A model generated the notes under the pieces. It was not told where the DNA came from. It made no database searches and saw only the letters and a program-made list of their open reading frames with translations. Of a stretch of 48,260 nt of DNA, positions 24,928-42,434 are shown one piece after another. The stretch is taken from positions 1 through 48,260 of the forward strand of contig CAMDBI010000027.1 in assembly GCA_945889005.1 (NCBI GenBank), in the 5' to 3' direction. Source of the stretch: Bacteroides fragilis (GTDB taxonomy: Bacteria; Bacteroidota; Bacteroidia; Bacteroidales; DTGW01). The position numbers and the translations under genes are program-made. How positions within the stretch are numbered: the first letter of the stretch is position 1; each line of letters begins with the position of its first letter.

Positions 24928-25425
24928 TTATTTTTTTAGGATTTTAAATGTTTTTATTTCAGAATTATTTTTGTCCAATACTTTTAAAATATAGGCAGCA
25001 GGGGCATAACGACTCATATCGATACGAGATTCGATGGCTTCGACCTTTTTGGTTTCGAGCAAGTTGCCATTTTCGTCGAACAAGCGATACACAAATGTTT
25101 TTGATTGTTTACTATCGACTTTCAGCACCAAATAATCGGTAGTTGGGTTGGGAAATGCCACACAGTGCAAATCGACAAACTCGGCTTTACCAATGCTGTT
25201 AATAACAGTTATTTCATAGGCTTGCTGCACTCCGGGGCTTACAGAACCAGTCGAACCACTACTGCTGGTGGTGTACATAGTTTGTCCAACACTATAAGCT
25301 GCTGTACCTCCACTTCCCGAGGCGTTTCCACCACTAGCCGGTATTGCATCCTGTGCCTGTGCACCAAAGAAAAACATCGATAGCACAACTGAGGCGCAAA
25401 TAGACTTGTTCATTTTTTTTATCAT
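24928..25425 (-). CDS. Exported protein with T9SS type A sorting domain
   Basis: 165 aa. Signal peptide MNKSICASVVLSMFFFGAQAQ, then a Gly/Ser-rich segment (SGGNASGSGGTAAYSVGQTMYTTSSSG, shown here in part as SGGTAAYSVGQ), and a C-terminal sorting domain from about residue 90: FPNPTTDYLVLKV, the LFDENGNLLE strand and a YILKVLDKN...IKTFKILKK end. Such domains send proteins through the type IX secretion system to the cell surface. The stop lies 6 nt before the ATG-TAG of the next gene, so both are one operon. Start alternatives: 25425 or 25413. Confidence 0.85.
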   Translation of the reverse strand: MIKKMNKSICASVVLSMFFFGAQAQDAIPASGGNASGSGGTAAYSVGQTMYTTSSSGSTGSVSPGVQQAYEITVINSIGKAEFVDLHCVAFPNPTTDYLVLKVDSKQSKTFVYRLFDENGNLLETKKVEAIESRIDMSRYAPAAYILKVLDKNNSEIKTFKILKK

Positions 25426-25490
25426 TCGATTTTAATTATTTAAGATGGTTACAATATTTTTTTTCTAAAACATAGTGTTTTATATTCATT

Positions 25491-25519
25491 CAAAAGTACT
25501 ACACAATTTTGAAACACAA
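25491..25519 (-). promoter_or_regulatory. Promoter of the T9SS-protein operon
   Basis: On the minus strand TTG (25519-25517), an 18-nt spacer and TACTTTTG (25498-25491) fit the Bacteroidota consensus; the leader would be about 60 nt. A second box, TACATTTG at 25548-25541, lacks a spaced TTG. Confidence 0.5.
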
Positions 25520-26721
<1,202 letters not shown>

Positions 26722-26724
<3 letters not shown>

Positions 26725-26831
26725 TGACTAATGACAAATTACAAATGACTAATTAAACATACACAGCCATTTGTCTTAAGTCTAATATCTACAATCTATT
26801 ATCTTAAAGTCTAATATCTAATATCTAAAAA
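26722..26831. repeat. Heptamer arrays in the nifH-nifI1 spacer
   Basis: A forward array of five 7-nt units (TAATGAC type, 26722-26756) starts with the nifH stop codon itself. After 11 nt a second array of nine units (CTAATAT type, 26768-26831) follows, all 7 nt long except one of 8. The period is directly visible; the two arrays pair only partly (GACAAATG-like against CATTTGTC). Confidence 0.8.
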
Positions 26832-26833
26832 AT

Positions 26834-27160
26834 ATGTTACTAATACGTGCAATAGTACGCCCCGACAAAGCGGGCACAGTAATGAAAGCTATGTTCGAGG
26901 CTGGTTTTCCGGCAGTTACAAAAATATCGGTTTTCGGTCGTGGTAAACAACGCGGCTTGAAAGTAGGCGATATTACTTACGACGAGCTTCCAAAAGAACT
27001 TCTTCTTATGGCAATTAAAGATGCCGACAAAGAATTTGTGATTCAAACCATAATGGATGCAGCCCGTACTGGCGAAAAAGGAGCATTTGGCGATGGCAAA
27101 ATCTTCGTTACTCCAATTTTCGAAACTTATACAATAAGTACCGGAACCAAGGAGGCTTAA
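26834..27160 (+). CDS. nifI1: PII-like nitrogenase regulator NifI1
   Basis: 108 aa, a GlnB-family protein. The order nifH-nifI1-nifI2-nifD and the sequence (MLLIRAIVRPDKAGTVMKAM, then TKISVFGRGKQRG and ARTGEKGAFGDGKIFVTPIFE) identify NifI1. In methanogens the NifI1/NifI2 complex binds NifDK directly when 2-oxoglutarate is low and blocks its interaction with NifH (ammonia switch-off). The T-loop (KVGDITYDELPKEL) lacks the uridylylated Tyr context of GlnB. Expected here: the same role, regulating the enzyme without covalent modification. Confidence 0.93.
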   Translation: MLLIRAIVRPDKAGTVMKAMFEAGFPAVTKISVFGRGKQRGLKVGDITYDELPKELLLMAIKDADKEFVIQTIMDAARTGEKGAFGDGKIFVTPIFETYTISTGTKEA

Positions 27161-27188
27161 TCTTTTGTCTAAAATCTTAAATCTAATT
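27161..27188 (+). repeat. Heptamer array in the nifI1-nifI2 spacer
   Basis: Four 7-nt units of type TCTaAAA fill the whole spacer from directly after the nifI1 stop. The vocabulary is that of the second array of the nifH-nifI1 spacer. Confidence 0.65.
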
Positions 27189-27191
27189 TGT

Positions 27192-27572
27192 ATGAAACTA
27201 ATAATGTCCATAATAAGAATAGCTAAGATGAACGAAACCAAGAAAGCATTGTCAGATGCAGGTTTACCATCGTTCATGGCTACTAGCGTTATGGGACGAG
27301 GCATTGGCAGGGGTTTAGGCTCTTCTTACGAAAAACTAATGTCCGATCCCGGAAACAAAGAACTACTTGCTCAGATTGGAGCTGAGCCTCGTCTCAAATC
27401 GAAACGTTTTATAACCTTGGTTGTACACGACGACAAAAAAGACTTAGCTATCGAAACACTTATAAAAGCCAACCAAACCGGCAATAGCGGCGATGGGAAA
27501 ATATGGGTTACAGAGTGTTACGATGCTATACGTGTACGCACCGCTGAACGAGGCGATATAGTACTCGATTAA
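27192..27572 (+). CDS. nifI2: PII-like nitrogenase regulator NifI2
   Basis: 126 aa from ATG 27192 (an ATG at 27204 is also possible). GlnB-family: SIIRIAKMNETKKALSDAGL at the start, TSVMGRGIGRGLGSSYEKLM before the T-loop and NSGDGKIWVTECYDAIRVRTAERG at the end. The enlarged T-loop region (DPGNKELLAQIGAEPRLKSK) is characteristic of NifI2. It should form a hetero-oligomer with NifI1 that senses 2-oxoglutarate and ATP/ADP and inhibits nitrogenase. It lies between nifI1 and nifD (24-nt gap). Confidence 0.93.
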   Translation: MKLIMSIIRIAKMNETKKALSDAGLPSFMATSVMGRGIGRGLGSSYEKLMSDPGNKELLAQIGAEPRLKSKRFITLVVHDDKKDLAIETLIKANQTGNSGDGKIWVTECYDAIRVRTAERGDIVLD

Positions 27573-27596
27573 TTTATAACAGAAAAAACAATCGCT

Positions 27597-29219
27597 ATGA
27601 ACGCAAGACAAACAAAAATGGATGGAGCTCGTTGGAAGGAAGAAGTACTAAAAAAGTACCCTGCCAAGATAGCTAAAAAACGCGAGAAAGGAATATTGGT
27701 CAACGACCCCGACAATGTTAAACAAATACAAGCAAACGTACGAACCATTCCGGGTATTATAACCCAACGAGGATGTACTTATGCCGGATGTAAAGGTGTG
27801 GTACTAGGACCCACCCGCGATATCATAAACCTGGTACATGGCCCAATCGGATGTTCTTTCTACGCTTGGCTTACACGTCGTAACCAAACCAAACCACCTA
27901 CCGAACAAGATGCCAACTACATGATGTATTGTTTCTCGACAGATATGCAAGACGACAACATTGTATTCGGTGGTGAGATAAAATTAAAACAAGCCATCAG
28001 AGAAGCTTTCGAGATTTTTAAACCCAAAAACATTGGAATCTTCTCGACTTGCCCTGTAGGTCTTATAGGCGACGATGTTCATGCCGTAGCCCGCGAAATG
28101 AAAGCAGAACTTGGAATCAATATATTTGGTTTCAGTTGCGAAGGTTACAAAGGCGTAAGCCAAAGTGCAGGTCACCACATTGCCAACAACGGTGTTTTCA
28201 AACACGTAATAGGTTTGAACGACAAACCTGTTGAAGGAAAATACAAGATTAACCTTTTGGGCGAATACAACATTGGTGGCGATGCTTTCGAGATTGAACG
28301 CATATTTGAACTTTGTGGATTTACGCTTATATCGACATTCAGTGGCAACTCAACCATCGATTCGTTCGAACAAGCGCACCACGCCGATTTTAACCTGGTT
28401 ATGTGCCACCGCTCTATCAACTACTTGGCCGAAATGATGGAAAAGAAATACGGTATTCCTTGGATGAAGGTTAACTTGATAGGTGCTGGAGCTACAGCCA
28501 AGAGTTTACGCAAAATTGCAAAATATTTTGGCGATAAAGAACTGATGGATCGTGTAGAAAAAGTAATCAACGATGAGTTGCCCGCTGTTGAAGCTGTGGT
28601 AAACAGAATTCGCCCTAACACCAAAGGCAAGATGGCCATGATGTTCGTAGGTGGATCACGAGCACACCATTATCAAGAACTTTTCACCGAATTAGGAATG
28701 AGCACAATGAGTGCCGGCTACGAATTTGGTCACCGCGACGACTACGAAGGTCGCCGTGTAATACCTACAATAACAGTAGATGCAGATAGCCGAAACATTG
28801 AAGAAATTCATGTCGAAGCCGATGCTGTACTCTACAACCCACGCCGTACTCCTGAGCAAATTGCCGAACTAAAAAGCAAAATCACTGAGTTTGCCGATTA
28901 CGAAGGTATGATGAAGGAAATGGAAAAAGGTTCATTAGTAATTGATGATATCAGCCATTACGAAATGGAAAAGCTCATTGAATTCTACAAACCCGATGTA
29001 TTCTGCGCAGGTATCAAAGAAAAATACGTTGCACAGAAAATGGGTGTACCTCTCAAACAGCTACACAGCTACGATTACGGCGGCCCTTATGCCGGATTCA
29101 AAGGCGCAATCAACTTTTTCGAAGATATTGATGCAATAGTAAATACAAGTATCTGGAAATTGATTAAAGCACCTTGGGAAACCGAAGCCGTGATTGAAGC
29201 AGAAATGGCATACTCTTAA
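27597..29219 (+). CDS. nifD: Nitrogenase MoFe protein alpha chain
   Basis: 540 aa. P-cluster ligands by alignment with Azotobacter: Cys60 (RGCTYAGCKG), Cys86 (GPIGCSFYAW) and Cys152 (STCPVGLIGDD). FeMo-cofactor ligands: Cys270 (LVMCHRSINY) and His490 (KQLHSYDYGGPYAG). Between about residues 380 and 440 there is an insertion of roughly 50 residues compared with the Azotobacter protein, which is typical of Group III (Clostridium-like) NifD. All catalytic residues are present, so the enzyme should be functional as Mo-nitrogenase rather than a VnfD/AnfD variant. No vnfG/anfG follows. Confidence 0.98.
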   Translation: MNARQTKMDGARWKEEVLKKYPAKIAKKREKGILVNDPDNVKQIQANVRTIPGIITQRGCTYAGCKGVVLGPTRDIINLVHGPIGCSFYAWLTRRNQTKPPTEQDANYMMYCFSTDMQDDNIVFGGEIKLKQAIREAFEIFKPKNIGIFSTCPVGLIGDDVHAVAREMKAELGINIFGFSCEGYKGVSQSAGHHIANNGVFKHVIGLNDKPVEGKYKINLLGEYNIGGDAFEIERIFELCGFTLISTFSGNSTIDSFEQAHHADFNLVMCHRSINYLAEMMEKKYGIPWMKVNLIGAGATAKSLRKIAKYFGDKELMDRVEKVINDELPAVEAVVNRIRPNTKGKMAMMFVGGSRAHHYQELFTELGMSTMSAGYEFGHRDDYEGRRVIPTITVDADSRNIEEIHVEADAVLYNPRRTPEQIAELKSKITEFADYEGMMKEMEKGSLVIDDISHYEMEKLIEFYKPDVFCAGIKEKYVAQKMGVPLKQLHSYDYGGPYAGFKGAINFFEDIDAIVNTSIWKLIKAPWETEAVIEAEMAYS

Positions 29220-29307
29220 ATTGACTATTGAATATTGTCTATTGACGATTTAAATAGACAATATTCAATAGTCAATATTCAATTATCAATAGTCAATAGT
29301 CAATATT
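29220..29307. repeat. Heptamer arrays with a 24-bp perfect hairpin, nifD-nifK spacer
   Basis: Forward array: four units of type ATTGAnT from 29220, directly after the nifD stop. Reverse array: seven units of type CAATAnT, 29259-29307. The segments 29220-29243 and 29253-29276 are perfect reverse complements (24 bp, loop 9 nt). The fold lies between two genes whose products are needed in equal amounts. Confidence 0.88.
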
Positions 29308-29322
29308 TAAAAATTCAATATC

Positions 29323-30705
29323 ATGTTACTCAGACATACAACAGATAAAATCATAGAACGTGAAGCGCTGACAATCAACCCCGCGAAGACTTGTCAGCCA
29401 GTTGGAGCGATGTATGCTGCACTTGGCATTCATGGGTGCTTGCCGCATAGTCACGGCTCGCAAGGTTGCTGCTCGTATCACCGAAGCGCCCTCACGCGTC
29501 ACTACAAAGAGCCGGTAATGGCTGCTACAAGCTCGTTTACCGAAGGTTCTTCGGTTTTTGGTGGACAAGCAAACTTACTGCAAGCAATTTCGACAATCTT
29601 CACGGTATACAACCCCGAAGTAATTGCAGTACACTCGACTTGTTTGTCGGAAACCATTGGCGACGACCTCAACCAGATTGTTCACAAAGCATCGGAAGAC
29701 GGATTGGTTCCAAAAGGAAAATATGTAATTCACTGCAACACTCCTAGTTATGTAGGTTCACATGTTACCGGTTATGCCAATATGTTGAGCGGATTTGTCA
29801 ACTACTTCTCGACCAACTCTGGCACTAAGAAAAATCAAATAAACCTTATCTGCGGTTGGGTCGAACCAAGCGATATGCGTGAGATTAAAAAGATTGCTGC
29901 CGAAATGGGTGTAAAAATTATTCTTTTCCCCGATACTTCGGATGTGCTCGATGCACCTATGACTGGTAAGCACGAAATGTACCCAAAAGGTGGTACAACC
30001 ATAGCTGAATTGGTAAGCACAGGCGATTCTAAATTTTCGATTGGACTCGGACCTTTCTGTACCGAAGATGCAGCCATCAAACTCGAGAACAAATGCAAAG
30101 TGAAGTTCGATATCATGGACATTCCCATCGGATTGAAAGCTACCGACCGTTTTATCACAGCTATGAGTCGTGCCGGAAACGTTCGTGTGCCACAAAACAT
30201 TACCGACGATCGTGGTCGCTTGATCGATATTGTAACCGACATGCACAAATACCTGTATGGCAAACGTGTCGCCTTGTTTGGCGATCCCGATTGGTTGGCA
30301 CCTATGTGCGAATTCCTTGTAACTCTCGACATGAAACCAGTATATATTGTAAGTGGAACTCCGGGAAAGAAATTTGACTTACAAATGCAAAAAATACTTG
30401 GCGCGAAAGTTCCTGAAGCAAAATTCAAAAATGGTCCCGGCGCAGATATGTTCCTCTTGCACCAATGGATTAAACAAGAAAGCGTCGATCTGCTTATCGG
30501 AAACACTTATGGAAAGTACATTTCGCTCGATGAAAACATACCTTTCCTGCGCATGGGTTTCCCCATCGTAGACCGTGTAGGCCACAGTTACTTCCCAACA
30601 GTAGGTTATCAGGGAGCAATCAATCTGGTTACCAAGATACTAGGACTATTGCTCGACCAACAAGATAAAATGGCAGCAGAAGAAAAAGTAGAACTGGTGA
30701 TGTAA
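29323..30705 (+). CDS. nifK: Nitrogenase MoFe protein beta chain
   Basis: 460 aa. It lacks the ~50-residue N-terminal extension of Azotobacter NifK, as in other Group III proteins. P-cluster ligands: Cys24 (KTCQPVGAMYA), Cys49 of the GSQGCCSYH motif and Cys107 (HSTCLSETIGDD). The 25-residue spacing of the first two matches Azotobacter Cys70/Cys95. The conserved DMFLLHQWIKQESVDLLIGNTYGK is near the C-terminus. It pairs with NifD in the alpha2-beta2 protein. Confidence 0.98.
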   Translation: MLLRHTTDKIIEREALTINPAKTCQPVGAMYAALGIHGCLPHSHGSQGCCSYHRSALTRHYKEPVMAATSSFTEGSSVFGGQANLLQAISTIFTVYNPEVIAVHSTCLSETIGDDLNQIVHKASEDGLVPKGKYVIHCNTPSYVGSHVTGYANMLSGFVNYFSTNSGTKKNQINLICGWVEPSDMREIKKIAAEMGVKIILFPDTSDVLDAPMTGKHEMYPKGGTTIAELVSTGDSKFSIGLGPFCTEDAAIKLENKCKVKFDIMDIPIGLKATDRFITAMSRAGNVRVPQNITDDRGRLIDIVTDMHKYLYGKRVALFGDPDWLAPMCEFLVTLDMKPVYIVSGTPGKKFDLQMQKILGAKVPEAKFKNGPGADMFLLHQWIKQESVDLLIGNTYGKYISLDENIPFLRMGFPIVDRVGHSYFPTVGYQGAINLVTKILGLLLDQQDKMAAEEKVELVM

Positions 30706-30712
30706 TTAAACT

Positions 30713-30818
30713 ATTACCCCAAACCCCTTAAAAAGGGGCAATAACAGAGTAGTGAAATTTATATATTCTACTATGTTAGCCCTCCTCGGTTACTGAGCGA
30801 AGCCGAAGTAAAGGAGGG
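30713..30818. repeat. Two hairpins in the nifK-nifE spacer
   Basis: A short hairpin CCCCTTAAAAAGGGG lies near 30724-30738. A second, larger one pairs CCCTCCT (30780-30786) with AGGAGGG (30812-30818), with an inner CGG/CCG step and the loop ACTGAGCGAAG. The wording ctgagcgaag is shared with 38063 and, as a variant, with 4774. This spacer (181 nt) has no heptamer array. Confidence 0.7.
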
Positions 30819-30886
30819 TTGGGAGGTAATGTAAAAAATTTCAGTTAGTAATTTAGGTTAGTCACAACAAACGGGGGAAATGAGTT

Positions 30887-32218
30887 ATGGATGATGTATT
30901 ACGAGCCAGGGAGTTGCAGGTGCTTACCAAAGGCAAAGACAAACACAACATAAAATGTGATGTGCAAAGCACTGCCGGATCGGTAAGCCAGAGGGCATGT
31001 ACTTTTTGTGGTTCACGGGTGGTCTTGTATCCTATCTCAGATGCACTACACGTAATTCATGGCCCCGTGGGTTGCGCGGCTTATACTTGGGACATTCGCG
31101 GAGCACTTTCGTCGGGTCCACAACTACACCGCATGAGTTTTGTGACCGACCTCAAAGAACGAGACGTAATATTTGGGGGTGAAAAAAAACTTACTCATGC
31201 ACTGCGCGAACTTATTGAAACTTATAAACCAAAAGCTGCATTTGTCTATGGTACATGCATAGTTGGTGTTATTGGCGACGATCTAGAAGCTATTTGCAAA
31301 CTGGTAAGTTCAGAAACCAATATTCCTGTCATTCCTGTAGAAGCAGCAGGATTCAAAGGCACTAAAAAAGATGGTTACAAAATTGCTTGCGATGCAATAT
31401 CACGATTAGTAGGCACCTTAGACTATCCCGAAGTACCAAATAACAGTATCAATATACTTGGCGACTTCAACCTTGCCGGGGAGCTATGGACACTGCTCGA
31501 TTATTACAAAAAAATTGGTGTAAACGTAGTGGCAACCATTACAGGCGACGGGCGTGTCGACGATATCCGCCGTTCGCATACTGCTGCTCTCAATGTGGTT
31601 CAATGCTCAGGTTCTATGACCTATCTAGCTAAAGACATGAAGGAAAAGTATGGTATTCCTTTTATGAAGGTTTCGTACTTCGGGCTCGAAGATATGTCTG
31701 ACGCACTCTATGCAGTGGCTGAACATTTTAAAGATGAAACCATGCTCGCAAAAGCTCGTGAGTTGGTAACCTCTGAATATACACGCATTATCCCTGCACT
31801 TAAATTTTATCGTGAAAAATTGCAAGGCAAAAAAGCTGCAATCTATGTAGGAGGCTCATTTAAAGCCATATCGCTTATCAAAGCATTACGTTTACTAGGT
31901 ATTAAGACCGTGGTTGTAGGTTCGCAAACAGGTATCACCGAAGAATACAAGATTCTTCAGGATATTGCCGACGAAGGTACAATTATAGTCGACGATTCGA
32001 ACCCAGTTGAACTCTCGAGCTTCGTAAAACAAACGGGTGCCGACTTACTTATTGGAGGAGTGAAGGAACGACCAATAGCCTACAAGCTCGGTCTCGGATT
32101 TTGCGACCACAATCACGAACGCAAAGAAGCCCTCGCCGGATACGAAGGCATGGTCAACTTTGCAAAAGAAGTATACTCGTCGGTTATGAGTCCAGTGTGG
32201 AAATTTAAGAGTAGATGA
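30887..32218 (+). CDS. nifE: FeMo-cofactor scaffold protein NifE
   Basis: 443 aa, paralogous to NifD. With NifN it forms the NifEN scaffold on which the NifB cofactor is turned into FeMo-co. Cluster ligands: Cys38 (RACTFCGSRV), Cys63 (GPVGCAAYTWD) and Cys124 (GTCIVGVIGDD). The cofactor-region Cys of NifD is represented by VVQCSGSMTYLAKDM. The last codons (SR, stop) are already part of the octamer array that follows. Start ATG at 30887; a G-rich GGGGGAA lies 10 nt ahead, unusual here, but not needed for the call. Confidence 0.96.
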   Translation: MDDVLRARELQVLTKGKDKHNIKCDVQSTAGSVSQRACTFCGSRVVLYPISDALHVIHGPVGCAAYTWDIRGALSSGPQLHRMSFVTDLKERDVIFGGEKKLTHALRELIETYKPKAAFVYGTCIVGVIGDDLEAICKLVSSETNIPVIPVEAAGFKGTKKDGYKIACDAISRLVGTLDYPEVPNNSINILGDFNLAGELWTLLDYYKKIGVNVVATITGDGRVDDIRRSHTAALNVVQCSGSMTYLAKDMKEKYGIPFMKVSYFGLEDMSDALYAVAEHFKDETMLAKARELVTSEYTRIIPALKFYREKLQGKKAAIYVGGSFKAISLIKALRLLGIKTVVVGSQTGITEEYKILQDIADEGTIIVDDSNPVELSSFVKQTGADLLIGGVKERPIAYKLGLGFCDHNHERKEALAGYEGMVNFAKEVYSSVMSPVWKFKSR

Positions 32219-32316
32219 GTAGAAATAAAGTAGTCGAGTAGTTGAGTAGTCGAGTAGAAATAAACTACTCAGCTACTCAGCTACTAGACTACTAAGCTAC
32301 TCGACTACTCAACTAC
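32214..32316. repeat. Octamer arrays in the nifE-nifN spacer
   Basis: Period 8. Forward units of type GTAGTCGA (32230-32253, three perfectly spaced, with looser GAGTAGAT units before them in the nifE end). Reverse units of type CTACTCAG, six in a row plus CTAC, 32265-32316. Segments 32238-32257 and 32297-32316 are perfect reverse complements (20 bp). The same octamer family is used at 41839-41937. Confidence 0.88.
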
Positions 32317-32331
32317 CCAAAATTTAAAAAC

Positions 32332-33732
32332 ATGAAAGCAACATACGAATTAGACCCAACATACACTTCGACCAAAAACGCTTGCAAACTTTGCAGTCCA
32401 CTTGGCGCTAGCGTAGTTTTTAAAGGAATACGTAATTGCATTCCTCTAATACATGGTTCACAAGGATGTGCTACTTATATAAGACGCTATATGATAAGCC
32501 ACTACAAAGAGCCTGTCGACATAGCATCGTCGAACTTTAGCGAAGAAACTACCATTTTTGGAGGAAACAACAATTTCAATATTGGGATTGACAATATAAT
32601 ATCGCAATATGAACCAGAAGCTATCGGAATTTCAACTACGTGCCTGAGCGAGACAATTGGTGAGGATGTTGATGGTATGCTGCGAGAATATCAGACAGTC
32701 CGCTCAGGCCGTAAGTTGCCTGTGTTGATTACAGCTTCTACTCCAAGTTATCAAGGTTCGCATATCGATGGCTTTCACGAAACAGTACTTGCTGTTATAA
32801 AAACGCTTGCAAGCTTTGGGAAATCGAGCGAGCATATCAATATTTTTCCAGGATTTGTTTCGCCCGAAGACATTCGACATATAAAAGAAGTATTTGAAGA
32901 CTTTGGATTAAAGTATATGCTATTCCCCGACTATAGCGACACACTCGACAACCCAACATGGGACGAGTATATAAAGCTATCGCCCGGCGGTACACCTGTC
33001 GAAGAAATACGCTCCGCCGGATCGGCTCGTGCAACCCTCGAAATTGGAAATATTTTCAACAAAGGAATGATGAAAGGTCGTATCAGGAACTTTTCTCAGG
33101 CAATGACTGCCGGAAACTTTTTGGAGAATGAATTTTCTGTACCCCTCAAACAAATAAACATGCCTATTGGTGTTGGCAACAGCGATACTTTTTTCAAAAC
33201 ACTAGAAGATTTGAGTGGTATAACTACTCCCGAAAAACATACTAAAGAGCGCGGAAGACTAATCGATTCATATATAGACGGTCACAAGTATGTATTTGGA
33301 AAAAAAGCCATCATCTATGGAGAAGAGGATTTAGTAATCGCTTTGGCAGGCTTCCTAGACGAAATAGGCGTGCAGGTTGTGCTTGCAGCATCGGGTGGCG
33401 ATAGCGCACTTCTCGAAAGCGAAGTAATGAAAGCTACACCTAATCATGTCGAAAAACCAAAAGTTGGACAAGGCTGGGATTTCGACCGTATTGCCAAAGA
33501 GGCTGAAACTTTGAGACCCGATATAATCATTGGTCACAGCAAAGGCTACTATATAGCCCGTATGCTCGAAATTCCGATTGTACGCATCGGGTTCCCTATT
33601 CACGATCGAATTGGAGGACAACGCCTACTACACCTGGGCTACAAAGGTACCCAGCAACTTTTTGATAAGATTGTAAACGCCCTGCTCGAAGCCAAACAAA
33701 ACGCTTCTCCAGTAGGGTACAAGTATATGTAA
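32332..33732 (+). CDS. nifN: FeMo-cofactor scaffold protein NifN
   Basis: 466 aa, paralogous to NifK and partner of NifE. Cys18/Cys21 (NACKLCSPLGA), Cys46 (GSQGCATYIRR) and Cys104 (TTCLSETIGED) correspond to the P-cluster region; NifEN carries a 4Fe-4S cluster there. No NifX domain is fused at the C-terminus, unlike some NifN-B proteins; the NifX-like domain is attached to NifB here. The C-terminus IGGQRLLHLGYKGTQQLFDKI is typical. Confidence 0.95.
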   Translation: MKATYELDPTYTSTKNACKLCSPLGASVVFKGIRNCIPLIHGSQGCATYIRRYMISHYKEPVDIASSNFSEETTIFGGNNNFNIGIDNIISQYEPEAIGISTTCLSETIGEDVDGMLREYQTVRSGRKLPVLITASTPSYQGSHIDGFHETVLAVIKTLASFGKSSEHINIFPGFVSPEDIRHIKEVFEDFGLKYMLFPDYSDTLDNPTWDEYIKLSPGGTPVEEIRSAGSARATLEIGNIFNKGMMKGRIRNFSQAMTAGNFLENEFSVPLKQINMPIGVGNSDTFFKTLEDLSGITTPEKHTKERGRLIDSYIDGHKYVFGKKAIIYGEEDLVIALAGFLDEIGVQVVLAASGGDSALLESEVMKATPNHVEKPKVGQGWDFDRIAKEAETLRPDIIIGHSKGYYIARMLEIPIVRIGFPIHDRIGGQRLLHLGYKGTQQLFDKIVNALLEAKQNASPVGYKYM

Positions 33733-33734
33733 AT

Positions 33735-34157
33735 CGTGGACAGTGGACAGTGAACCGAAGACAGTGAACCGAAGACAGTGAACCTTGTTCAGTGATCCGT
33801 GAACCGTGAACCGTTTTTTACGGAACACGAACCACGAACCACGATTAAAAACACCCCCTCCTGCAATCCCGATATTTCGGGAAAGCACTTCCCGCCCTTC
33901 TCACGTGTTGAGAGGGGCTAGAGGAAGGAGAAAATAACGTGAACCGTGTTCCGTGTTCCGTGAATAGTGAACAGTGTCTCGTGAACAGTGAACTGTGAAC
34001 TGTGAACAGTGAACAGTGAACCGTGAACTGTTAAATAAGAGTTATTGAATATTTATTATTAATTAAACCGAATCGCTATCTACGGACTACGGACTACGGT
34101 CCACGAATCACAGACTACGGTTCACGAACTACGGTCCACGGTTCACAGATAACGGTT
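33735..34157. repeat. Heptamer arrays in the nifN-nifB spacer
   Basis: The 441-nt spacer holds no gene. Array a: 11 units of type CGTGAAC, 33735-33811, with three reverse units CACGAAC-like at 33826-33846. Array b: 13 units of type NGTGAAC, 33938-34028, exactly in phase. After an AT-rich 52-nt loop, array c: 11 units of type TACGGTY, 34081-34157, in reverse orientation to b. Arrays b and c can form an imperfect stem of about 77 bp. A different insert at 33855-33930 contains the hairpin CCCGATATTTCGGG. Confidence 0.88.
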
Positions 34158-34173
34158 CTCTAATTCAAACACC

Positions 34174-35430
34174 ATGGACACAACAAAGCACCCATGCTTC
34201 AACAAAGAAGCGAAACACAAGTACGCAAGGGTACACTTACCCGTAGCTCCTAAGTGCAATATTCAGTGCAACTATTGCGACCGAAAGTACGACTGTGTCA
34301 ACGAAAGTCGTCCTGGCGTAACTAGTGCTGTGCTTAGTCCTCAACAATCGGTTACCTACCTCGAAACACTCGATGCTAAGTTGAAGAATCTGGCTGTAAT
34401 TGGAATTGCCGGACCCGGCGACCCATTTGCAAACCCCGAAGAAACCATGGCTACACTCCGTGCTGCTAAAGAGCATTTTCCCGAAAAAATCTTATGCCTC
34501 TCGTCCAATGGACTTGGAATTGGTCCTTATATCGAGGAACTTGCACAGATGAATGTCGGTCATGTAACCATTACTATAAACGCTTTAGACCCTGAAATTT
34601 TAGCTAAAATTTATTCATGGGTAAGAGTCGATAAGCATATTTATCGCGGAGTAATGGGAGCTACTGTCCTACTTGGAAAACAACTCGAGGCCGTTCGCGA
34701 ATTGAAGAAACATGGTATTACAGTGAAAATAAACACAATTGTCCTGCCAGGAATCAACGATATGCACATTAAAAAACTGGCAAAGGAAATGGCTGCCATG
34801 GGAGCCGATTTGATGAACTGCATTCCAGTATATCCAACCAAAAACACGCCTTTCGAAACCATCGAAAAACCAACGGCAGAAATGATGACTCGCATACGCG
34901 AAGAAATATCGGAATATATTACCCCTATGACCCACTGTGCTCGTTGTAGAGCCGATGCAGCTGGTTTGCTCGGTCAAGATAGCAGCGAAGCCATGTCGAT
35001 ACTGCAAGAAATTGCAGCTGGACCAGTTAACCCCAAAGAAGACAGACCTTACGTGGCGGTTGCAACCCACGAAGGCATATTTGTAAACCAACACCTAGGA
35101 GAAGCTCGCCAACTCTACATATTCAAAGAAACTCGCAATGGTTACCATCTTGTCGAACAACGCACAATGCCCGAACCCGGAGCAGGTGATATTCGTTGGC
35201 TAAGCATGGCAAGACTTTTGAAGGATTGTCGTTCTATACTTGTATCAGGCGTAGGTCCAAACCCCAAAGAAATACTCAACAACACGGGAGTAAAAGTCAT
35301 CGAAATGTCGGGTATGATCGACGAAGGACTCGATGGTGTTTACAAAGGCAATCCCATACGCTCGGTGTCAAAATCTGCTATGACCAAATGCGGAACAGGC
35401 TGTAAAGGAAATGCACAGGGTTGCGGATGA
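34174..35430 (+). CDS. nifB: FeMo-cofactor biosynthesis protein NifB, radical SAM with fused NifX-like domain
   Basis: NifB fuses two 4Fe-4S clusters and inserts carbide to make NifB-co. 418 aa. Radical SAM motif C28-x3-C32-x2-C35 (KCNIQCNYC) with Cys8 and Cys41 (YDC) as further cluster ligands; IAGPGDPFANP is the SAM-binding GGE-like loop. Cys255 and Cys258 (THCARCRADAAG) serve the K clusters. From about residue 292 a NifX/NafY-type domain follows (YVAVATHEGIFVNQHLGEA). The end KCGTGCKGNAQGCG is a Cys-rich tail. The start ATG lies 17 nt after array c. Confidence 0.97.
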   Translation: MDTTKHPCFNKEAKHKYARVHLPVAPKCNIQCNYCDRKYDCVNESRPGVTSAVLSPQQSVTYLETLDAKLKNLAVIGIAGPGDPFANPEETMATLRAAKEHFPEKILCLSSNGLGIGPYIEELAQMNVGHVTITINALDPEILAKIYSWVRVDKHIYRGVMGATVLLGKQLEAVRELKKHGITVKINTIVLPGINDMHIKKLAKEMAAMGADLMNCIPVYPTKNTPFETIEKPTAEMMTRIREEISEYITPMTHCARCRADAAGLLGQDSSEAMSILQEIAAGPVNPKEDRPYVAVATHEGIFVNQHLGEARQLYIFKETRNGYHLVEQRTMPEPGAGDIRWLSMARLLKDCRSILVSGVGPNPKEILNNTGVKVIEMSGMIDEGLDGVYKGNPIRSVSKSAMTKCGTGCKGNAQGCG

Positions 35431-35433
35431 GAA

Positions 35434-35568
35434 TCGTGGTTCGTGGTTCGTGGACCGTGAACCGTAAAACCACGGTTCACGGTTCACGGTCCACGGTTCA
35501 CGGTTCACGGTCCACGGTCCACGGTTCACGGTCCACGGTCCACGATTTACAGTCCACAGTCCACAACA
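35434..35568. repeat. Heptamer arrays in the nifB-ferredoxin spacer
   Basis: Forward: five units of type TCGTGGN, 35434-35468. Reverse: ten consecutive CACGGTY units with only the last base varying between C and T, 35471-35540, then four more degenerate units to 35568. Segments 35449-35465 and 35479-35495 are perfect reverse complements (17 bp). This is the most regular array of the window. Confidence 0.92.
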
Positions 35569-35598
35569 AATATATTTAACACTTAATTCAATATCATC

Positions 35599-35907
35599 AT
35601 GAAAAAACCAACTTATCACATTTTGGTATGCAATTCGTACCGCGTGGCTGGCGATGCACAAGGTGCATGTAACAAGAAAGGCGCAGCTCAGTTTATCCAA
35701 TACATCAACGAAGGAGCATCGGACAGAGGCCTAGATGTAGCAGTTTCGTCGACCGCATGTCTAAACGTATGTGCACAAGGTCCTGTAATGGTTGTTCACC
35801 CTTGCAATTATTGGTATGGAGGTGTTAACGAAGAAGCCATCGACGAAATCCTCGATGCTCTTGAGAGCGACGGCGGCTCGGTAGCAAAGTATCTGATTGC
35901 AGAATAA
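35599..35907 (+). CDS. Thioredoxin-like 2Fe-2S ferredoxin
   Basis: 102 aa. The Cys pattern CNSYRVAGDAQGACNKKGA (Cys11 and Cys24) plus STACLNVCAQGPVMVVHP (Cys54 and Cys58) is that of the thioredoxin-fold 2Fe-2S ferredoxins such as the Clostridium pasteurianum 2Fe-2S protein and Azotobacter FeSI. These are repeatedly found next to nif genes and the clostridial protein contacts the MoFe protein. A role in nitrogenase electron supply, protection or assembly is likely. It lies between nifB and nifV in the same direction. Confidence 0.88.
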   Translation: MKKPTYHILVCNSYRVAGDAQGACNKKGAAQFIQYINEGASDRGLDVAVSSTACLNVCAQGPVMVVHPCNYWYGGVNEEAIDEILDALESDGGSVAKYLIAE

Positions 35908-35909
35908 AA

Positions 35910-36003
35910 TCGTGAAAAGTGGACAGTGACCCGTATACCGTGAATAGGTCTCCCACTTTTGGTTAAAATACGGTTCACGGTCCACAAATCACGGTCAACG
36001 ACA
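35910..36003. repeat. Heptamer arrays in the ferredoxin-nifV spacer
   Basis: Forward: five units of type CCGTGAA, 35910-35944. Loop of about 24 nt containing CCCACTTTTGG. Reverse: five units of type CACGGTC, 35969-36003, the last reaching the A of the nifV start codon. Vocabulary shared with the neighbouring spacers. Confidence 0.82.
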
Positions 36004-37109
36004 TGTTACATATCATAGACACTACACTTCGCGATGGCGAGCAAGCTCCCGGGGTTTCATTTAGCCGCGAAGAAAAAGTCCATATCGCCTCAATGCTCGA
36101 TTTGATTGGTATCGAAGAAATTGAAGCTGGAATTCCTGCAATGGGCGAGCGCGAGATTAAAGACCTTCGTGTACTTGGTTCGTTGGGCCTGAAATGCAGA
36201 ATTACTCCTTGGTGCAGAGCTACTATCGATGATATAAACAGTGCTGCAGCAACTGGACTTGATGCTGTTCATATTTCATTTCCTGTTACAATAGTACAAC
36301 TCGAAGCCATTGGAAAAAATAAAAAATGGGTTTTTGAAACCATGCGTAAGGTTGTAACTTATGCTCAGAACCGTTTCGGATATGTTTCGATTGGGGCACA
36401 AGATGCATCAAGAGCCGACGAACTCATGTTACGCGATTTTGCTTCCCTGGCCGACCTTTTAAAAGTTAATCGAATTAGACTAGCCGATACTGTTGGAAAA
36501 CTCAATCCAATATCGACCCAACGACTTGTACGTATGGTCAAAGACGAAGTCACCAATATTGAAATCGAGTTTCATGCCCACAACGATTTGGGAATGGCAA
36601 CAGCCAATGCTGTAACAGCCATCACGACCGGAGCTGATGCCATTAGTGTTACTATTAACGGTATTGGCGAACGCTCGGGCAATGCAGCTCTCGAAGAAGT
36701 AATTATGGCATTGAAAAAATCGTATGGTATGGAGCTGCAATACAATACCAGTTTGTTTAGTCAACTATCGGAATATGTGTACTCCGCATCGGGACGACAA
36801 ATGCCCGAGTCGAAACCCGTAACCGGTCCAATGTCCATGACTCACGAAACAGGTATTCATACACGCAGCATTATTGAAAACAATGAAGCTTACGAACTCT
36901 TTAAAGAAGGAGAAACGGGACAACACACACGATTTGTTTTCGGGAAACATTCGGGAAAAGCGGCATTGAAGCATGTACTCGACAAAAGCGGCATTTTTGC
37001 CGGCACCGAACGAATCAACCATTTACTCAATTTCATTAAAGAACAAGCATTTCGAAACAAGAAAGCCTTTTCGGAACAAGAAGTTGTTGCGATGGCGAGG
37101 AATTCGTGA
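36003..37109 (+). CDS. nifV: Homocitrate synthase
   Basis: NifV condenses acetyl-CoA and 2-oxoglutarate to homocitrate, the organic ligand of FeMo-cofactor. 368 aa. The N-terminal IIDTTLRDGEQAPGVSFS (residues 4-21) is the DRE-TIM metallolyase signature with catalytic Arg10 and metal ligand Asp11; the metal-binding HAH (His191, His193) is in IEFHAHNDLGMA. GNAALEEVIMAL and the C-terminal GKHSGKAALKHVL also match. No LeuA-type regulatory domain is present. Its last codons (NS, stop) coincide with the first heptamer unit (TCGTGAA) of the next array. Confidence 0.93.
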   Translation: MLHIIDTTLRDGEQAPGVSFSREEKVHIASMLDLIGIEEIEAGIPAMGEREIKDLRVLGSLGLKCRITPWCRATIDDINSAAATGLDAVHISFPVTIVQLEAIGKNKKWVFETMRKVVTYAQNRFGYVSIGAQDASRADELMLRDFASLADLLKVNRIRLADTVGKLNPISTQRLVRMVKDEVTNIEIEFHAHNDLGMATANAVTAITTGADAISVTINGIGERSGNAALEEVIMALKKSYGMELQYNTSLFSQLSEYVYSASGRQMPESKPVTGPMSMTHETGIHTRSIIENNEAYELFKEGETGQHTRFVFGKHSGKAALKHVLDKSGIFAGTERINHLLNFIKEQAFRNKKAFSEQEVVAMARNS

Positions 37110-37269
37110 ATAGTGGAACGTGAACAGTGAACCGTGAACCGTGGAACGTGGACAGTGAACCGTGGAACGTGGAACGTGGAACGTGGACAGTGGAACGTGA
37201 AAAGTGAATCGTATAAAGTGAATGCAAAAGTTTTATTAGTAATTAGTCATTTGTAATTAGCAATTATTT
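37104..37269. repeat. Heptamer arrays in the nifV-HEPN spacer
   Basis: Seventeen units of type ACGTGGA without a single phase break, 37104-37222, the first overlapping the nifV stop. Then five units of type ATTAGTA, 37235-37269, the reverse complement of the TAATGAC vocabulary used after nifH. The two parts do not pair with each other, unlike in the other spacers. Confidence 0.9.
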
Positions 37270-37273
37270 TATC

Positions 37274-37651
37274 ATGGAAACAATCAATCACTCAGCCCTC
37301 TACAATGAGGCAAAGCAATACACTAATACTGTAAAAGGCTTATTCAAGAAGAAAAAATTCAACAACCAAACAATTGCCAACATAGCATGTCTGGCTGCCG
37401 AGGAGTTTATGGTTGCGTACATGGCAAAAAATGGTCAAATGCCACATCATCATTCGCTCGATGCCTTGATTGACGATGTGGCCAAGATAAAAAAAGATTT
37501 ACCCCTTTCAATGACGAAAGAAGTGCTTTTTCTCGAAGAATTTCAGAACCTGTGCGTAATAGAGAATATTGGCATGAAAGTGCCAACTGATGCAGAGATG
37601 GAACGAATTATCAATACACTGGTTGGATTGGATGTAACGTTGTTTCCTTAA
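37274..37651 (+). CDS. Small HEPN-like protein at the end of the nif operon
   Basis: 125 aa, no membrane segment or signal. Predicted all-helical. The middle part IACLAAEEFMVAYMAKNGQMPHHHSLDALID (in two pieces: AAEEFMVAYMAKNG at 41-54 and PHHHSLDALI at 57-66) resembles HEPN proteins, where an AxEKxLKAxL helix is followed by P..HSL. The RX4-6H ribonuclease motif of toxic HEPNs is not present. I do not know its function. Same strand and array-filled spacing as the nif genes, so it is likely co-expressed with them. It could also be a helical nif accessory of another family. Confidence 0.5.
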   Translation: METINHSALYNEAKQYTNTVKGLFKKKKFNNQTIANIACLAAEEFMVAYMAKNGQMPHHHSLDALIDDVAKIKKDLPLSMTKEVLFLEEFQNLCVIENIGMKVPTDAEMERIINTLVGLDVTLFP

Positions 37652-37936
37652 CACCTCTTTCATTTTGATGCTTTGAATCTTACCCAAAAAAGGAAAACGC
37701 AAAAAACATCATATAATTTATAAAGGTTGACATCCTATAGATAAATATCTTCTATGATCTAACTTCGTCAGTAAATAAACTACAGAATTCTCCAAAATCT
37801 AATCAAATTAAAAGGAATATATTTTTCAGAAAGAGTAAGATCATATTTGACAAAGTATTTTCCATAATACCTTTTTAAATATCTAGAAATAATAAAAAAA
37901 ATCACTAATAACCGACTAATATTAATATTTGATATG
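37652..37936. other. AT-rich gap after the nif operon
   Basis: About 285 bases without any coding frame that I can support and without a clear hairpin. It separates the last nif gene from the nested inverted repeat at 37937. Confidence 0.5.
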
Positions 37937-38082
37937 AGATTCTTCGCTCCACTGCGTTACGCTCAGAATGACAGTTATTTAGTGTTTTAACGAGGGGGTA
38001 AGCGGCGGCTTCGCCGCCGCTTACCCCCTCGTTAACTGTTACATCCCGTAAAGACTGTCATTCTGAGCGAAGCGAAGAATCT
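37937..38082. repeat. Nested inverted repeat (large cruciform-forming element)
   Basis: Outer arm AGATTCTTCGCT (37937-37948) pairs with AGCGAAGAATCT (38071-38082). A middle arm, 37961-37975, pairs perfectly with 38054-38068. The core is a 23-bp perfect palindrome, 37987-38009 against 38013-38035, loop TTC, very GC-rich (GCGGCGGC against GCCGCCGC) in an AT-rich surrounding. It lies between the nif operon and the GT39 gene. It can serve as a terminator but has no T-run; the sequence resembles dispersed REP-like elements. Confidence 0.85.
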
Positions 38083-38204
38083 TATTCTTTTAGTCGGTCA
38101 GTAGTGAAAAAAAATAAATATAATTGTCGTTAATGTTTAAAATCTTTTATATAATTGTTTCTTCGTAAAACAATAGTTTCCAAGCAACATTCACTACAAA
38201 TCCA

Positions 38205-40274: not shown

Positions 40275-40281
40275 AACACCA

Positions 40282-41166: not shown

Positions 41167-41831
41167 GTATCGTATTTTCTATTAACACTGTATATAGTCG
41201 TAAGCAACACCAACGATACTATGAAAAGTATCAAAGCATAGTTGTTGGCAGTAGCAAAATTAAGGGCTTGCACTTCGTCGTAAATTGCAATTGAAGCTAC
41301 ACGGGTTTCGCCTGGCATATTGCCTCCCACCATGAGTACGATACCGAACTCTCCGATACTATGCGCAAATGTGAGCGCTATAGCTGTGATAATCGATGGT
41401 TTTATGTTTGGAACCAGTACCCTGAAAAAAGTCTGTATTTTCGATTTCCCCAGCGTATATGATGCTTCGCGAAGGCTATCGGGTAATGCTCTTAAGCCAT
41501 TGTGTAAGGGTTGTATCATAAATGGCAAGCTAAATATAACCGATGCTATAAGCACTCCTTCGAATGTGAATGCCAATCGAACATCGAACATGTTCGATAG
41601 CCATGAACCAAACCAGTTGCGGGGACTATACAATACCAACATGTAATATCCAATAACAGAGGGAGGCAAGACCATGGGCATACTTACAAGCGCTTCTACA
41701 AAAGGCTTCAATCTGGTTTTGGTATATGCAAGCCAATAAGCAAAGGGCAAACCAATAGCAATCAGTATCAATGTAGTCGATAAAGCCAACTTAAAAGTAA
41801 TCCAAAGGGTTTGTGCAAAAGTTGAATCCAT
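41151..41831 (-). CDS. modB: Molybdate ABC transporter permease
   Basis: 226 aa with five to six membrane helices. The EAA loop near the C-terminal half (ALPDSLREASYTLGKSKIQTFFRVLVPNIKPSI, read as LREASYTLGKSKIQTFFRV) contacts ModC. PMVLPPSVIGYYML is typical for ModB/CysT-type permeases. It lies between the di-molbindin gene (91-nt array-filled spacer) and modC. Two copies in the membrane with two ModC form the importer fed by ModA. Confidence 0.93.
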   Translation of the reverse strand: MDSTFAQTLWITFKLALSTTLILIAIGLPFAYWLAYTKTRLKPFVEALVSMPMVLPPSVIGYYMLVLYSPRNWFGSWLSNMFDVRLAFTFEGVLIASVIFSLPFMIQPLHNGLRALPDSLREASYTLGKSKIQTFFRVLVPNIKPSIITAIALTFAHSIGEFGIVLMVGGNMPGETRVASIAIYDEVQALNFATANNYALILFIVSLVLLTTIYSVNRKYDTWKVM

Positions 41832-41838
41832 ATTTTTT

Positions 41839-42332: not shown

Positions 42333-42347
42333 AATATTTTATTTACA

Positions 42348-42424: not shown

Positions 42425-42434
42425 GGTTATTTTT

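Follow-up and report, generated by a model that had tools for sequence, protein, structure and literature searches.

Arrays of phased units in the nif spacers

What fills the gaps between the genes of this nif operon, and does the filling belong to the operon or to the genome? The preliminary description of the window (the whole stretch of 48,260 nucleotides analyzed here) placed degenerate units of exactly 7 nt in seven nif spacers and units of 8 nt in the nifE-nifN spacer, with phase kept for up to 17 units. We compared periods 5-12 of each spacer with 400 dinucleotide shuffles, and the period signal of the nif spacers exceeded that of the shuffled ones. Period 7 was equalled by none of the 400 shuffles in the nifH-nifI1, nifD-nifK, nifN-nifB, nifB-fdx and nifV-orf spacers, and was weaker in the nifI1-nifI2 (P = 0.007, or P = 0.035 with a later nifI2 start) and fdx-nifV (P = 0.017) spacers, which confirms all seven. 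Period 8 in the nifE-nifN spacer was likewise equalled by no shuffle (0/400). The nifK-nifE and nifI2-nifD spacers gave no signal at periods 5-12 against 400 shuffles. The units are indeed degenerate and of nearly fixed length.

In the nifH-nifI1 spacer, a forward array of the TAATGAC family detected by TRF (26722-26753, + strand) includes the nifH stop codon, and a second 7-nt array of TCTAATA words (26773-26828, +) is not its reverse complement. The nifI1-nifI2 spacer has a short TCTAAAA array (27168-27186, +; TRF). Pairing of a forward with a reverse-complementary array was looked for in these two spacers and is absent. In the nifD-nifK spacer, the array scan located a 5' arm of 7-nt ATTGACT units that begins at the stop codon (29220-29250, +), and the strand-switch scan located its reverse complement as the 3' arm, also of 7-nt units (29253-29307, -). 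The nifE-nifN spacer consists of a 5' arm of 8-nt AGTAGTCG units (32209-32258, +), the start of which supplies the final codons of nifE together with the TGA stop, and a 3' arm of 8-nt CTACTCAG units (32261-32316, -), both detected by TRF.

The nifN-nifB spacer carries two forward/reverse-complement pairs according to the strand-switch scan. The first consists of GTGGACA/GTGAACC units and then CACGAAC units (33735-33844, both orientations), and the second of about 14 in-phase GTGAAC-type units (33938-34034, +; array scan) and CTACGGA/TCACGGT units with a 35-nt block duplication (34080-34158, -; TRF). In the nifB-fdx spacer, TCGTGGT/CCGTGAA units (35434-35468, +) are followed by 13.6 CCACGGT units with a 21-nt higher-order repeat at 93% (35470-35564, -; TRF), and the fdx-nifV spacer has short degenerate arms, forward then reverse, recognized by eye (35908-36002). 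An array with 17 in-phase GTGGAAC/GTGAACA units (37105-37223, +; TRF, 37105-37208), lies in the nifV-orf spacer and has the nifV TGA stop within its first unit; the 3' array there belongs to a different family, ATTAGTA/ATTAGTC (37235-37266, -).

The proposal that a forward array is followed by a reverse-complementary one in most spacers therefore holds for five of the eight array spacers, namely nifD-nifK, nifE-nifN, nifN-nifB and nifB-fdx by strand-switch scan and fdx-nifV by eye and folding. It does not hold for nifH-nifI1, nifI1-nifI2 or nifV-orf, the last of which combines two unlike words (GTGGAAC and ATTAGTC). The range first given to the arrays (26722-37269) was also too narrow, because a non-nif spacer of the window has paired 8-nt AGTAG/CTACT arrays (41836-41934, both orientations; TRF and array scan) and arrays occur throughout the genome.

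Distribution in the genome and in the phylum

In 846 kb of this genome, we counted 76 intergenic period-7 segments, compared with a shuffled mean of 3.6 and 5 in coding regions, and 22 intergenic period-8 segments (shuffled mean, 4.3; coding, 7). Neighboring periods in the intergenic DNA were rare (period 6, 2; period 9, 4; period 10, 4). The arrays are thus genome-wide and not a system of the nif operon, as had been supposed. Genes were called with a custom script. Spacers shorter than 30 nt were excluded, as were those longer than an upper limit of 600 or 1200 nt that varied with the analysis; most analyses, but not the period tables, also dropped arrays in which a single base exceeded 58% or G+C fell below 12%. 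It is barely conceivable that gene calling, chance or the composition of AT-rich intergenic DNA produced the arrays as an artefact. In divergent spacers, several of the weak segments are low-complexity A/T-rich DNA, and period 2 also reached about twice its shuffled mean (19 vs 9.6), but dinucleotide-preserving shuffles yielded only 1/20 to 1/30 of the period-7 count and a reversed-pattern control gave 0 matches against 260; the shuffles refute this explanation.

We also analyzed 72 other Bacteroidota nif loci, which remained after exclusion of eight of 80 nifB loci (L090, L095 and L097-L102) and are not 72 genomes, as L032 and L051 are one. Period 7 was found in 68 segments from 32 loci (2.2 in shuffles) and period 8 in 30 segments from 18 loci (1.2 in shuffles), and each remaining period from 2 to 13 gave at most 6 segments. 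The words differ between the loci, while periods 7 and 8 recur.

Arrays are enriched in nif gaps relative to other tandem gaps, both in relatives (49/272 vs 5/102) and in this genome (6/9 vs 50/318), which leaves room for a function. They are rare between divergent genes of this genome (6/91 spacers vs 56/327 tandem spacers, P = 0.012). Away from nif, 20 Bacteroidia genomes gave 8 period-7 and 4 period-8 segments in 48 kb, and 24 genomes from other classes of the phylum gave 7 of period 7, none of period 8 and 5 of period 9 in 49 kb. Among individual samples away from nif, genome G001 had 1 period-7 and 2 period-8 segments in 11.6 kb, G028 had 6 period-7 segments in 9.0 kb, and G035 had no segment of either period in 8.3 kb. 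Density in the other genomes is mostly lower, so that the density in this genome is atypical of the phylum.

Polarity at gene borders

The arrays of this genome adjoin stop and start codons, and the outward strand bears a TGA/TGG word at both borders. Of 45 cases, 17 have the array extending into the stop codon and 13 have it reaching at least 3 nt into the end of the coding sequence. Of 68 array spacers, 32 contain both orientations and 26 of these switch only once; the corresponding numbers in relatives are 29 of 56, with 17 switching once. The TGA/TGG word pointed outward in 52 spacers and inward in one, with 15 ties (n = 68). The rule was formed on a first sample, with GTAG later removed from the word set, and in the second 400 kb, which was held out, we found 18 outward, none inward and 9 ties. 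In relatives the rule fails (18 outward, 20 inward and 20 ties; n = 58), and for this reason we do not attribute a stop-codon function to the arrays. TGA was not significantly enriched among array-adjoining stops (6/45 vs 24/399, P = 0.11), and TAA was somewhat rarer there (29/45 vs 314/399, P = 0.04).

When words were matched between spacers, the same polarity prevailed over the opposite in this genome (stop-stop, 315 vs 74; start-stop, 367 vs 223; start-start, 137 vs 104) and in relatives (13 vs 3, 16 vs 6 and 5 vs 2, respectively), although such pair counts, like those for turnover and hairpin co-occurrence below, share loci and are not independent. Double units of AATGAC/GTCATT obeyed the polarity in 24 cases here and opposed it in 7, all at starts; in G001, from the same family, the numbers were 10 and 3.

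A comparison of whole spacer halves in inverted and direct order was uninformative (inverted better in 29 and direct in 33 of 68 spacers) because arrays often cross the spacer midpoint; strand-switch classification took its place and the swapped-halves control was retained. A G-rich 5' arm was rejected as a universal rule (18 vs 4 with 10 ties in this genome, P = 0.004; 12 vs 7 with 10 ties in relatives, P = 0.36) and is retained as a mere tendency. Note that a cruder polarity test scored 22 arrays as inward, many of them segments spanning both arms, and that the TAG stop at C5:44879 sits in an inward array.

RNA folding of the spacers

Transcripts of the arrays had been expected to form long hairpins. 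Several pairs do so in RNA folding, with z-scores of -9.5 for nifE-nifN (its hairpin, -9.1 to -9.5), -6.7 for nifD-nifK, -6.8 for nifN-nifB, -6.0 for nifB-fdx (its hairpin, -68.8 kcal/mol and -6.6) and -3.0 for fdx-nifV (-3.0 to -4.4). The halves of nifN-nifB folded apart gave -3.8 (33733-33845) and -3.6 (33933-34173). The array spacers nifH-nifI1 (z = -0.6) and nifV-orf (z = +1.1) form no hairpin, and the expectation does not extend to every array spacer.

Selection for intercistronic hairpins that act in processing, stability or stoichiometry of nif mRNA, for which any folding sequence would suffice, is a rather unlikely origin of the arrays. Besides the strong hairpins of the four spacers from nifD-nifK to nifB-fdx, it accounts for the excess of hairpins (z of -2 or lower) in relatives (102/187 nif-nif spacers vs 17/63 other tandem spacers, P = 0.00015) and for the 602 6-mers shared by arms of one spacer, compared with a mean of 281 and a maximum of 405 for swapped arms (200 permutations). 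Against it, besides the two array spacers that do not fold, orthologous nif spacers of unrelated sequence both had a hairpin in 50 of 159 pairs, where chance predicts 55 (in an independent subset, 12 of 41 against a prediction of 13.5), and conservation of the hairpins by position was rejected on this chance-level co-occurrence. Tandem spacers of this genome outside nif were structured hardly more often with arrays (19/44) than without (74/213). Rfam gave no match at the gathering score across 25000-42500, and none of 12 terminator-like sites (GC stem and T run) lies in a nif spacer. Mirrored unit order, as from copying of whole hairpins or quasi-palindrome correction, was not general when unit-shuffled spacers were folded: at most one of 25 shuffles folded as well in 3 of 23 hairpins here and in 9 of 19 in relatives. 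Arrays do not seem to exist for the sake of the hairpin, which looks like a consequence that is tolerated or exploited in individual cases; a regulatory role in the nif operon is possible.

Signs of unit copying and array turnover

Selection or a copying mechanism had been suggested to conserve the period, and the evidence favors copying. In 21 arrays, unit identity at lags of 7 to 35 nt was 0.777, 0.767, 0.734, 0.732 and 0.700 (z = 8.5, 7.2, 2.6, 2.1 and -0.7), compared with about 0.70 when unit order was shuffled. Adjacent units are thus more alike than distant ones, a signature of local duplication in steps of 7n. Exact block duplications, a signal that runs of identical units also produce, were present in 13 of the 21 arrays but in only one of six tested arrays of the window.

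Turnover is fast. Among 97 pairs of orthologous spacers whose flanking proteins share 90% identity or more, 31 had an array in one member only, 6 in both and 60 in neither, where a weak array below the threshold was scored as absent. Proteins 93-99% identical flank an array-free spacer of 19 nt or a filled one of 111-113 nt, and orthologous spacers of relatives mostly hold unrelated filler. Unrelated, unphased spacers in relatives had been named as a refutation of the first proposal, and in part they do refute it: related species mostly do not keep the arrays in place, although the period beats shuffles and recurs at many other loci.

Mobile elements and templated addition as possible sources

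REP and REPIN elements are small intergenic palindromes at gene ends. The arrays resemble them in being intergenic and at gene ends, and differ in having no fixed ends or length and in not lying beside Y1 matches. If a Y1/RAYT or other transposase inserted whole hairpins, the arms of which then decayed, outward polarity would be automatic, as it is found at starts, at stops and between spacers. Consistent with such an element are an AGTAG family of 8-nt units, seen in nine of the spacers sampled and with both arms in five of them, a 37-nt hairpin present in one and absent from the other of two otherwise matching spacers (L077 and L069), and three PF01797 (Y1) matches in this genome. Yet none of these Y1 matches has a heptad or octad array within 3 kb, as far as the sampled stretches extend, whereas other palindromes do lie near them. 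G035 has 35 GTGAAC triple-word matches and no Y1 match, G002-G004 have Y1 matches and no GTGAAC triple word, and the AGTAG spacers vary in loop, length and arm number, with no shared ends or target duplications by eye. We therefore consider a mobile palindromic element clearly improbable.

Outward, often G-rich arrays meeting head to head also resemble fused telomeres, and some words are telomere-like (AGGGTAA/CCCTTTA in L071), as if a reverse transcriptase or telomerase-like enzyme had added them to DNA ends at gene borders. Such templated addition is highly improbable: the arrays contain internal duplication, and outward G>C skew is only a tendency (46 vs 21 here, 34 vs 18 in relatives). An RVT_1 enzyme as the source is largely refuted, since no RVT_1 match was found in this 99.4% complete genome or in G001 and G035, which bear heptad words.

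Proposed origin

With moderate confidence, we explain the arrays as lineage-specific intergenic satellites of 7-8 nt that are enriched in nif gaps and correspond, in Bacteroidota, to the paired GGGAATC arrays known from Xanthomonas. They resemble an unusual satellite of the genome more than they do a switch devoted to nitrogen fixation. Short degenerate words lie at gene borders, with arms outward from the flanking genes and both orientations in about half of the spacers. Arrays would grow and shrink by local duplication of whole units (unequal exchange or slippage, the latter being the presumed enzymatic cause), which would keep the period while point mutations alter the words. They would persist mainly in gaps free of promoters, so that most of them would be found in tandem gaps within operons, nif operons among them. 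Where both arms belong to one word family, the transcript would form a long hairpin, which may modulate stability or translation of the cistrons. If slippage acted alone, both orientations should be seeded; the polarity is nevertheless nearly fixed within the genome, suggesting that a rule of copying or retention is missing from this scheme; copying between spacers may underlie the shared polarity. The polymerase footprint is a published guess for a sharp limit to 7-8 nt, although period 9 nearly equals period 7 in the sample from other classes (5 vs 7 segments).

Words change between lineages while period 7/8 stays, and the outward polarity at codon borders stays within a lineage. Orthologous nif gaps turn over while their flanking proteins remain 90-99% identical, which cautions against treating hairpins of nif operons as conserved regulators. 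Why 7 is an old question, made testable by strain collections and slippage assays.

Comparison with known repeat systems

Cyanobacterial heptanucleotide repeats are known as STRR, and their use as an analogue was fair: ATTNGTC, a common word, occurs 126 times here, 1046 times in a Coleofasciculus genome and 103 times in Pleurocapsales. In the few cyanobacterial arrays examined the polarity is opposite, with GTCATT outward in all 13 double units, from five spacers. Three heptanucleotides have been mentioned in Calothrix, and inverted array pairs are few in Nostoc (PMC4692102). Passages on prokaryote satellites in a further paper name heptamer families but no Bacteroidetes (PMC6749651).

The preliminary description knew of no Bacteroidota system with paired inverted arrays. 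This was too strong, given the pairs in Xanthomonas (PMC4692102) and the TAACTGA direct repeats reported from Beggiatoaceae, Cyanobacteria and five Bacteroidetes (MacGregor 2015, PMC4679880). Among the matches listed in the open-licence literature, the latter was the only report of heptad arrays in Bacteroidota, and no other match described arrays in Bacteroidota or in nif spacers. TAACTGA repeats resemble ours as intergenic heptads at codon borders with a strong orientation bias, with other heptads mixed in (in Bacteroidetes) and a patchy distribution across phyla. They have been suggested to bind a regulator of translation at positions upstream of the start codon. They differ in favoring one word and in having 169 direct sets vs one inverted in the BOGUAY genome.

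A close likeness is to the GGGAATC arrays of Xanthomonas, with 70 (Xcc) and 75 (Xac) paired inverted arrays per genome (Rehm et al. 2015, PMC4692102). That study treats one G-quadruplex word type per genome, and the papers examined describe heptad arrays mostly one word at a time, whereas many non-quadruplex families coexist here; no GGG run occurs in the main words GTGAAC, TAATGAC, ATTGAC and AGTAGTCG. G-tracts characterize the word type that has been published and are no general trait of heptad arrays. Compared with the Xanthomonas and Nostoc heptads as described there, the present arrays also include an 8-nt class, lineage-specific words and enrichment within nif operons. As a wider, speculative proposal, palindromic arrays might be seeded at gene borders by a form of DNA copying that inherently advances by 7 (sometimes 8) nt, in Xanthomonas and Beggiatoaceae as well as in Bacteroidota and Cyanobacteria; words and polarity would be fixed by lineage, with stops and starts sharing one polarity, and would spread from spacer to spacer. 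Rehm et al. show that GGGAATC and the Nostoc word GGGGA(C/T)T, like the words here, form degenerate 7-nt intergenic arrays that point outward, are scarce between divergent genes and vary in length and sequence among close relatives, and that those of Xanthomonas, like ours, form inverted pairs (PMC4692102).

Repeat arrays in the nif spacers

The nif cluster occupies positions 25867-37651 of the window according to NCBIfam and Pfam matches, in the order nifH, nifI1, nifI2, nifD, nifK, nifE, nifN, nifB, a 2Fe-2S ferredoxin gene (fdx), nifV and a small orf, where nifI1 and nifI2 are two P-II genes. The curated NCBIfam cut-offs were exceeded by nifH, nifD, nifK, nifE and nifB, those of Pfam by nifI2 and the ferredoxin; nifI1, nifN and nifV fell below the cut-offs and were named from family matches and gene order. 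The small orf (37274-37651, 3' of nifV) gave a sub-threshold match to the HEPN domain (Pfam, E = 5e-4), and such an orf was rare at the other nif loci (three BLAST labels among 72 loci).

Each spacer was compared with 400 dinucleotide shuffles. Period 7 was the sole signal in nifH-nifI1, nifD-nifK, nifN-nifB, nifB-fdx and nifV-orf, and period 8 the sole signal in nifE-nifN (0/400 shuffles in each). The period-7 signal also exceeded the shuffles, more weakly, in nifI1-nifI2 (P = 0.007; 0.035 if the start is placed later) and fdx-nifV (P = 0.017), and no period signal was detected in nifK-nifE or nifI2-nifD. The preliminary description, which claimed degenerate 7-nt units in seven nif spacers and 8-nt units in nifE-nifN, is thus borne out, and the longest run it reported, 17 units in phase, is present at 37105-37223. 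A forward array followed by a reverse-complementary one, claimed for most of these spacers, was recognized in five of the eight (four by a strand-switch scan, fdx-nifV by eye). In nifV-orf, a GTGGAAC array is paired with an array of a different word, ATTAGTC. TRF detected a perfect 14-nt repeat at 33746-33784, and the final codons and the stop codon of nifE consist of array sequence.

Distribution of the arrays

The arrays extend beyond the nif operon. We counted self-match segments in an 846-kb sample of the present genome, which comprised 486 spacers with 94 kb of DNA, and found 76 segments of period 7 (shuffled mean 3.6; 5 in all coding DNA of the 846 kb) and 22 of period 8 (4.3 and 7, respectively). 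Periods 6, 9 and 10 gave 2, 4 and 4 segments in the spacers, period 2 gave 19 (9.6 in shuffles) and period 11 gave 9 (4.9). The triple GTGAAC word (at most two mismatches, overlapping matches included) occurred 260 times genome-wide, and the reversed control 0 times. Among spacers of up to 600 nt, arrays were present in 56/327 tandem, 6/51 convergent and 6/91 divergent gaps (tandem versus divergent, P = 0.012), and nif gaps were enriched over other tandem gaps (6/9 versus 50/318, P = 0.001).

The same periods prevailed in the nif loci of other Bacteroidota, for which 72 of 80 nifB loci (assigned from record titles) provided 498 spacers and 153 kb. Period 7 gave 68 segments in 32 loci (shuffled mean 2.2) and period 8 gave 30 in 18 loci (1.2); all remaining periods within 2-13 gave at most 6 each. 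Periods 22 (14 segments) and 30 (12) were also above the shuffles (0.6 and 0.2) in these loci, possibly reflecting mixed steps of 7 and 8. Within these loci, arrays were again commoner between nif genes (49/272 gaps) than in the remaining tandem gaps (5/102; P = 0.0008). Away from nif, most sampled genomes were far poorer in arrays, with one exception (G028).

The words themselves vary among relatives (CATAATG, TGATGTGA, GTTGATTG, AGTCGTA and others). Besides the present genome, 8 of 59 relatives contain the triple GTGAAC word, which was absent from all four same-family genomes searched. ATTNGTC matched 126 times in the present genome and 31 times in a same-family one, and two cyanobacteria gave 103 and 1046 matches (controls 0, 0, 5 and 1, in the same order); the remaining 11 of the 15 genomes searched gave 0 to 2 matches. 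In a 330-nt nif gap of one relative (L055:8229-8558), an 8-nt arm (GTTGATTG) lies opposite one of 9 nt (AATCAACTT), which shows that the step can change between arms. A Dysgonamonadaceae locus (L071:4900-5888 and 11575-11676) carries CCCTTTA/AGGGTAA arrays, which we take to resemble plant-type telomere repeats.

Growth, polarity and turnover

Identity between units dropped with distance in the 21 single-polarity arrays that have eight or more units. It was 0.777 at lag 7 but had fallen to 0.700 by lag 35 and to 0.676 by lag 49; with shuffled unit order it was about 0.70-0.71 (z = 8.5, 7.2, 2.6, 2.1, -0.7, -0.3 and -2.7 for successive lags from 7 to 49). Exact 14- or 21-nt block repeats were present in 13 of the 21 arrays, but in only one of the six of them that lie in the window. 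This pattern is expected from repeated local duplication and not from selection toward a single consensus word; of the "selection or a copying mechanism" proposed initially, copying is thus favoured.

The arrays reach closely to the genes. Arrays counted as outward start a median of 3 nt from stops and 7 nt from starts; at stops, the stop codon lies inside the array in 17/45 cases, and at least 3 nt of the coding end is covered in 13/45. In the present genome, the three units nearest the border have TGA/TGG on the strand leading away from the gene, both at stops and at starts (34 out, 1 in and 6 ties in the first sample; 18, 0 and 9 in the held-out second 400 kb). Arrays of different spacers were concordant, with shared 5-mers in same versus opposite polarity numbering 2110 versus 826 for start-stop, 1914 versus 356 for stop-stop and 782 versus 407 for start-start pairs; within loci of relatives, the corresponding counts were 130/42, 114/25 and 34/6. 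Relatives did not have the TGA word in common (18 out, 20 in and 20 ties). For the single word AATGAC/GTCATT, AATGAC was outward in 24/31 double units of the present genome and in 10/13 of a same-family genome (G001), but GTCATT in 13/13 of a Coleofasciculus genome, from five spacers only. Polarity thus seems to be set by lineage, not by chemistry or a sense-strand signal.

We compared 97 pairs of orthologous tandem spacers whose flanking proteins share at least 90% identity. Arrays occupied a single member of 31 pairs, both members of 6 and neither member of 60, and the median length difference was 55 nt. The gap equivalent to nifH-nifI1 was compared across five loci, three of them named Prolixibacteraceae (L069, L077 and L082) and two no more precisely than Bacteroidetes or Bacteroidota (L067 and L081). 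It measured 19 nt in two, 111-113 nt in two and 129 nt, with a C-rich palindrome, in one, between proteins 93-99% identical. Alternative fillers at equivalent gaps were chiefly CCCCTAAAGGGG-type palindromes. C-rich palindromes (CCCC...GGGG, CCCTCC...GGAGGG) lie in the window at 30712-30832 in the nifK-nifE gap and at 33848-33932 between the two heptad pairs of nifN-nifB. Similar CCCCTAAAGGGG palindromes occupy nif gaps in other Bacteroidota (L041, L053, L055 and L060). Of the stretches L069:9978-9997 and L077:9941-9997, one has a 37-nt hairpin, 2 bases 3' of a stop codon, that the other lacks, where the surrounding genes are 96% identical in protein.

Folding of the spacers

Long hairpins between cistrons, as first proposed, were predicted for nifB-fdx (-68.8 kcal/mol, z = -6.6), nifE-nifN (-48.3 kcal/mol, z = -9.1), nifD-nifK (z = -6.7), nifN-nifB (z = -6.8; its two pairs separately -3.8 and -3.6) and fdx-nifV (z = -3.0; -4.4 in a second run), but not for nifH-nifI1 (z = -0.6) or nifV-orf (z = +1.1). 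Hairpins (z of -2 or below) were commoner in relatives' nif gaps than in other tandem gaps (102/187 versus 17/63, P = 0.00015), with arrays (24/38) and without them (78/149). In orthologous gaps of unrelated sequence, both members had hairpins in 50 cases against 55 expected, not above chance, and outside nif in the present genome array gaps were scarcely more structured than others (19/44 versus 74/213). A search for terminator-like sites found none in a nif gap, and Rfam gave no match in 25000-42500. We regard the hairpins as a frequent by-product that may have local uses.

Candidate agents and known systems

The present genome has no RVT_1 reverse transcriptase domain and three Y1 transposase matches. 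No heptad or octad array lies within 3 kb of these three, as far as the stretches extend; other palindromes do occur there. Another sampled genome (G035) has the GTGAAC word and no Y1 match. The published guess, which PMC4692102 and PMC4679880 credit to Mrazek et al. 2007, is replication slippage that favours a step of about 7. TAACTGA heptads are described from five Bacteroidetes in MacGregor 2015 (PMC4679880).

In the open-licence literature, we found no prior description of many word families in one genome, of an 8-nt class, of lineage-varying words under a fixed period, of lineage-specific outward polarity, of array enrichment in nif operons, or of rapid filler replacement. The heptad-array architecture of Rehm et al. 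(PMC4692102) is the architecture seen here, and the arrays are therefore a variant of this already known type.
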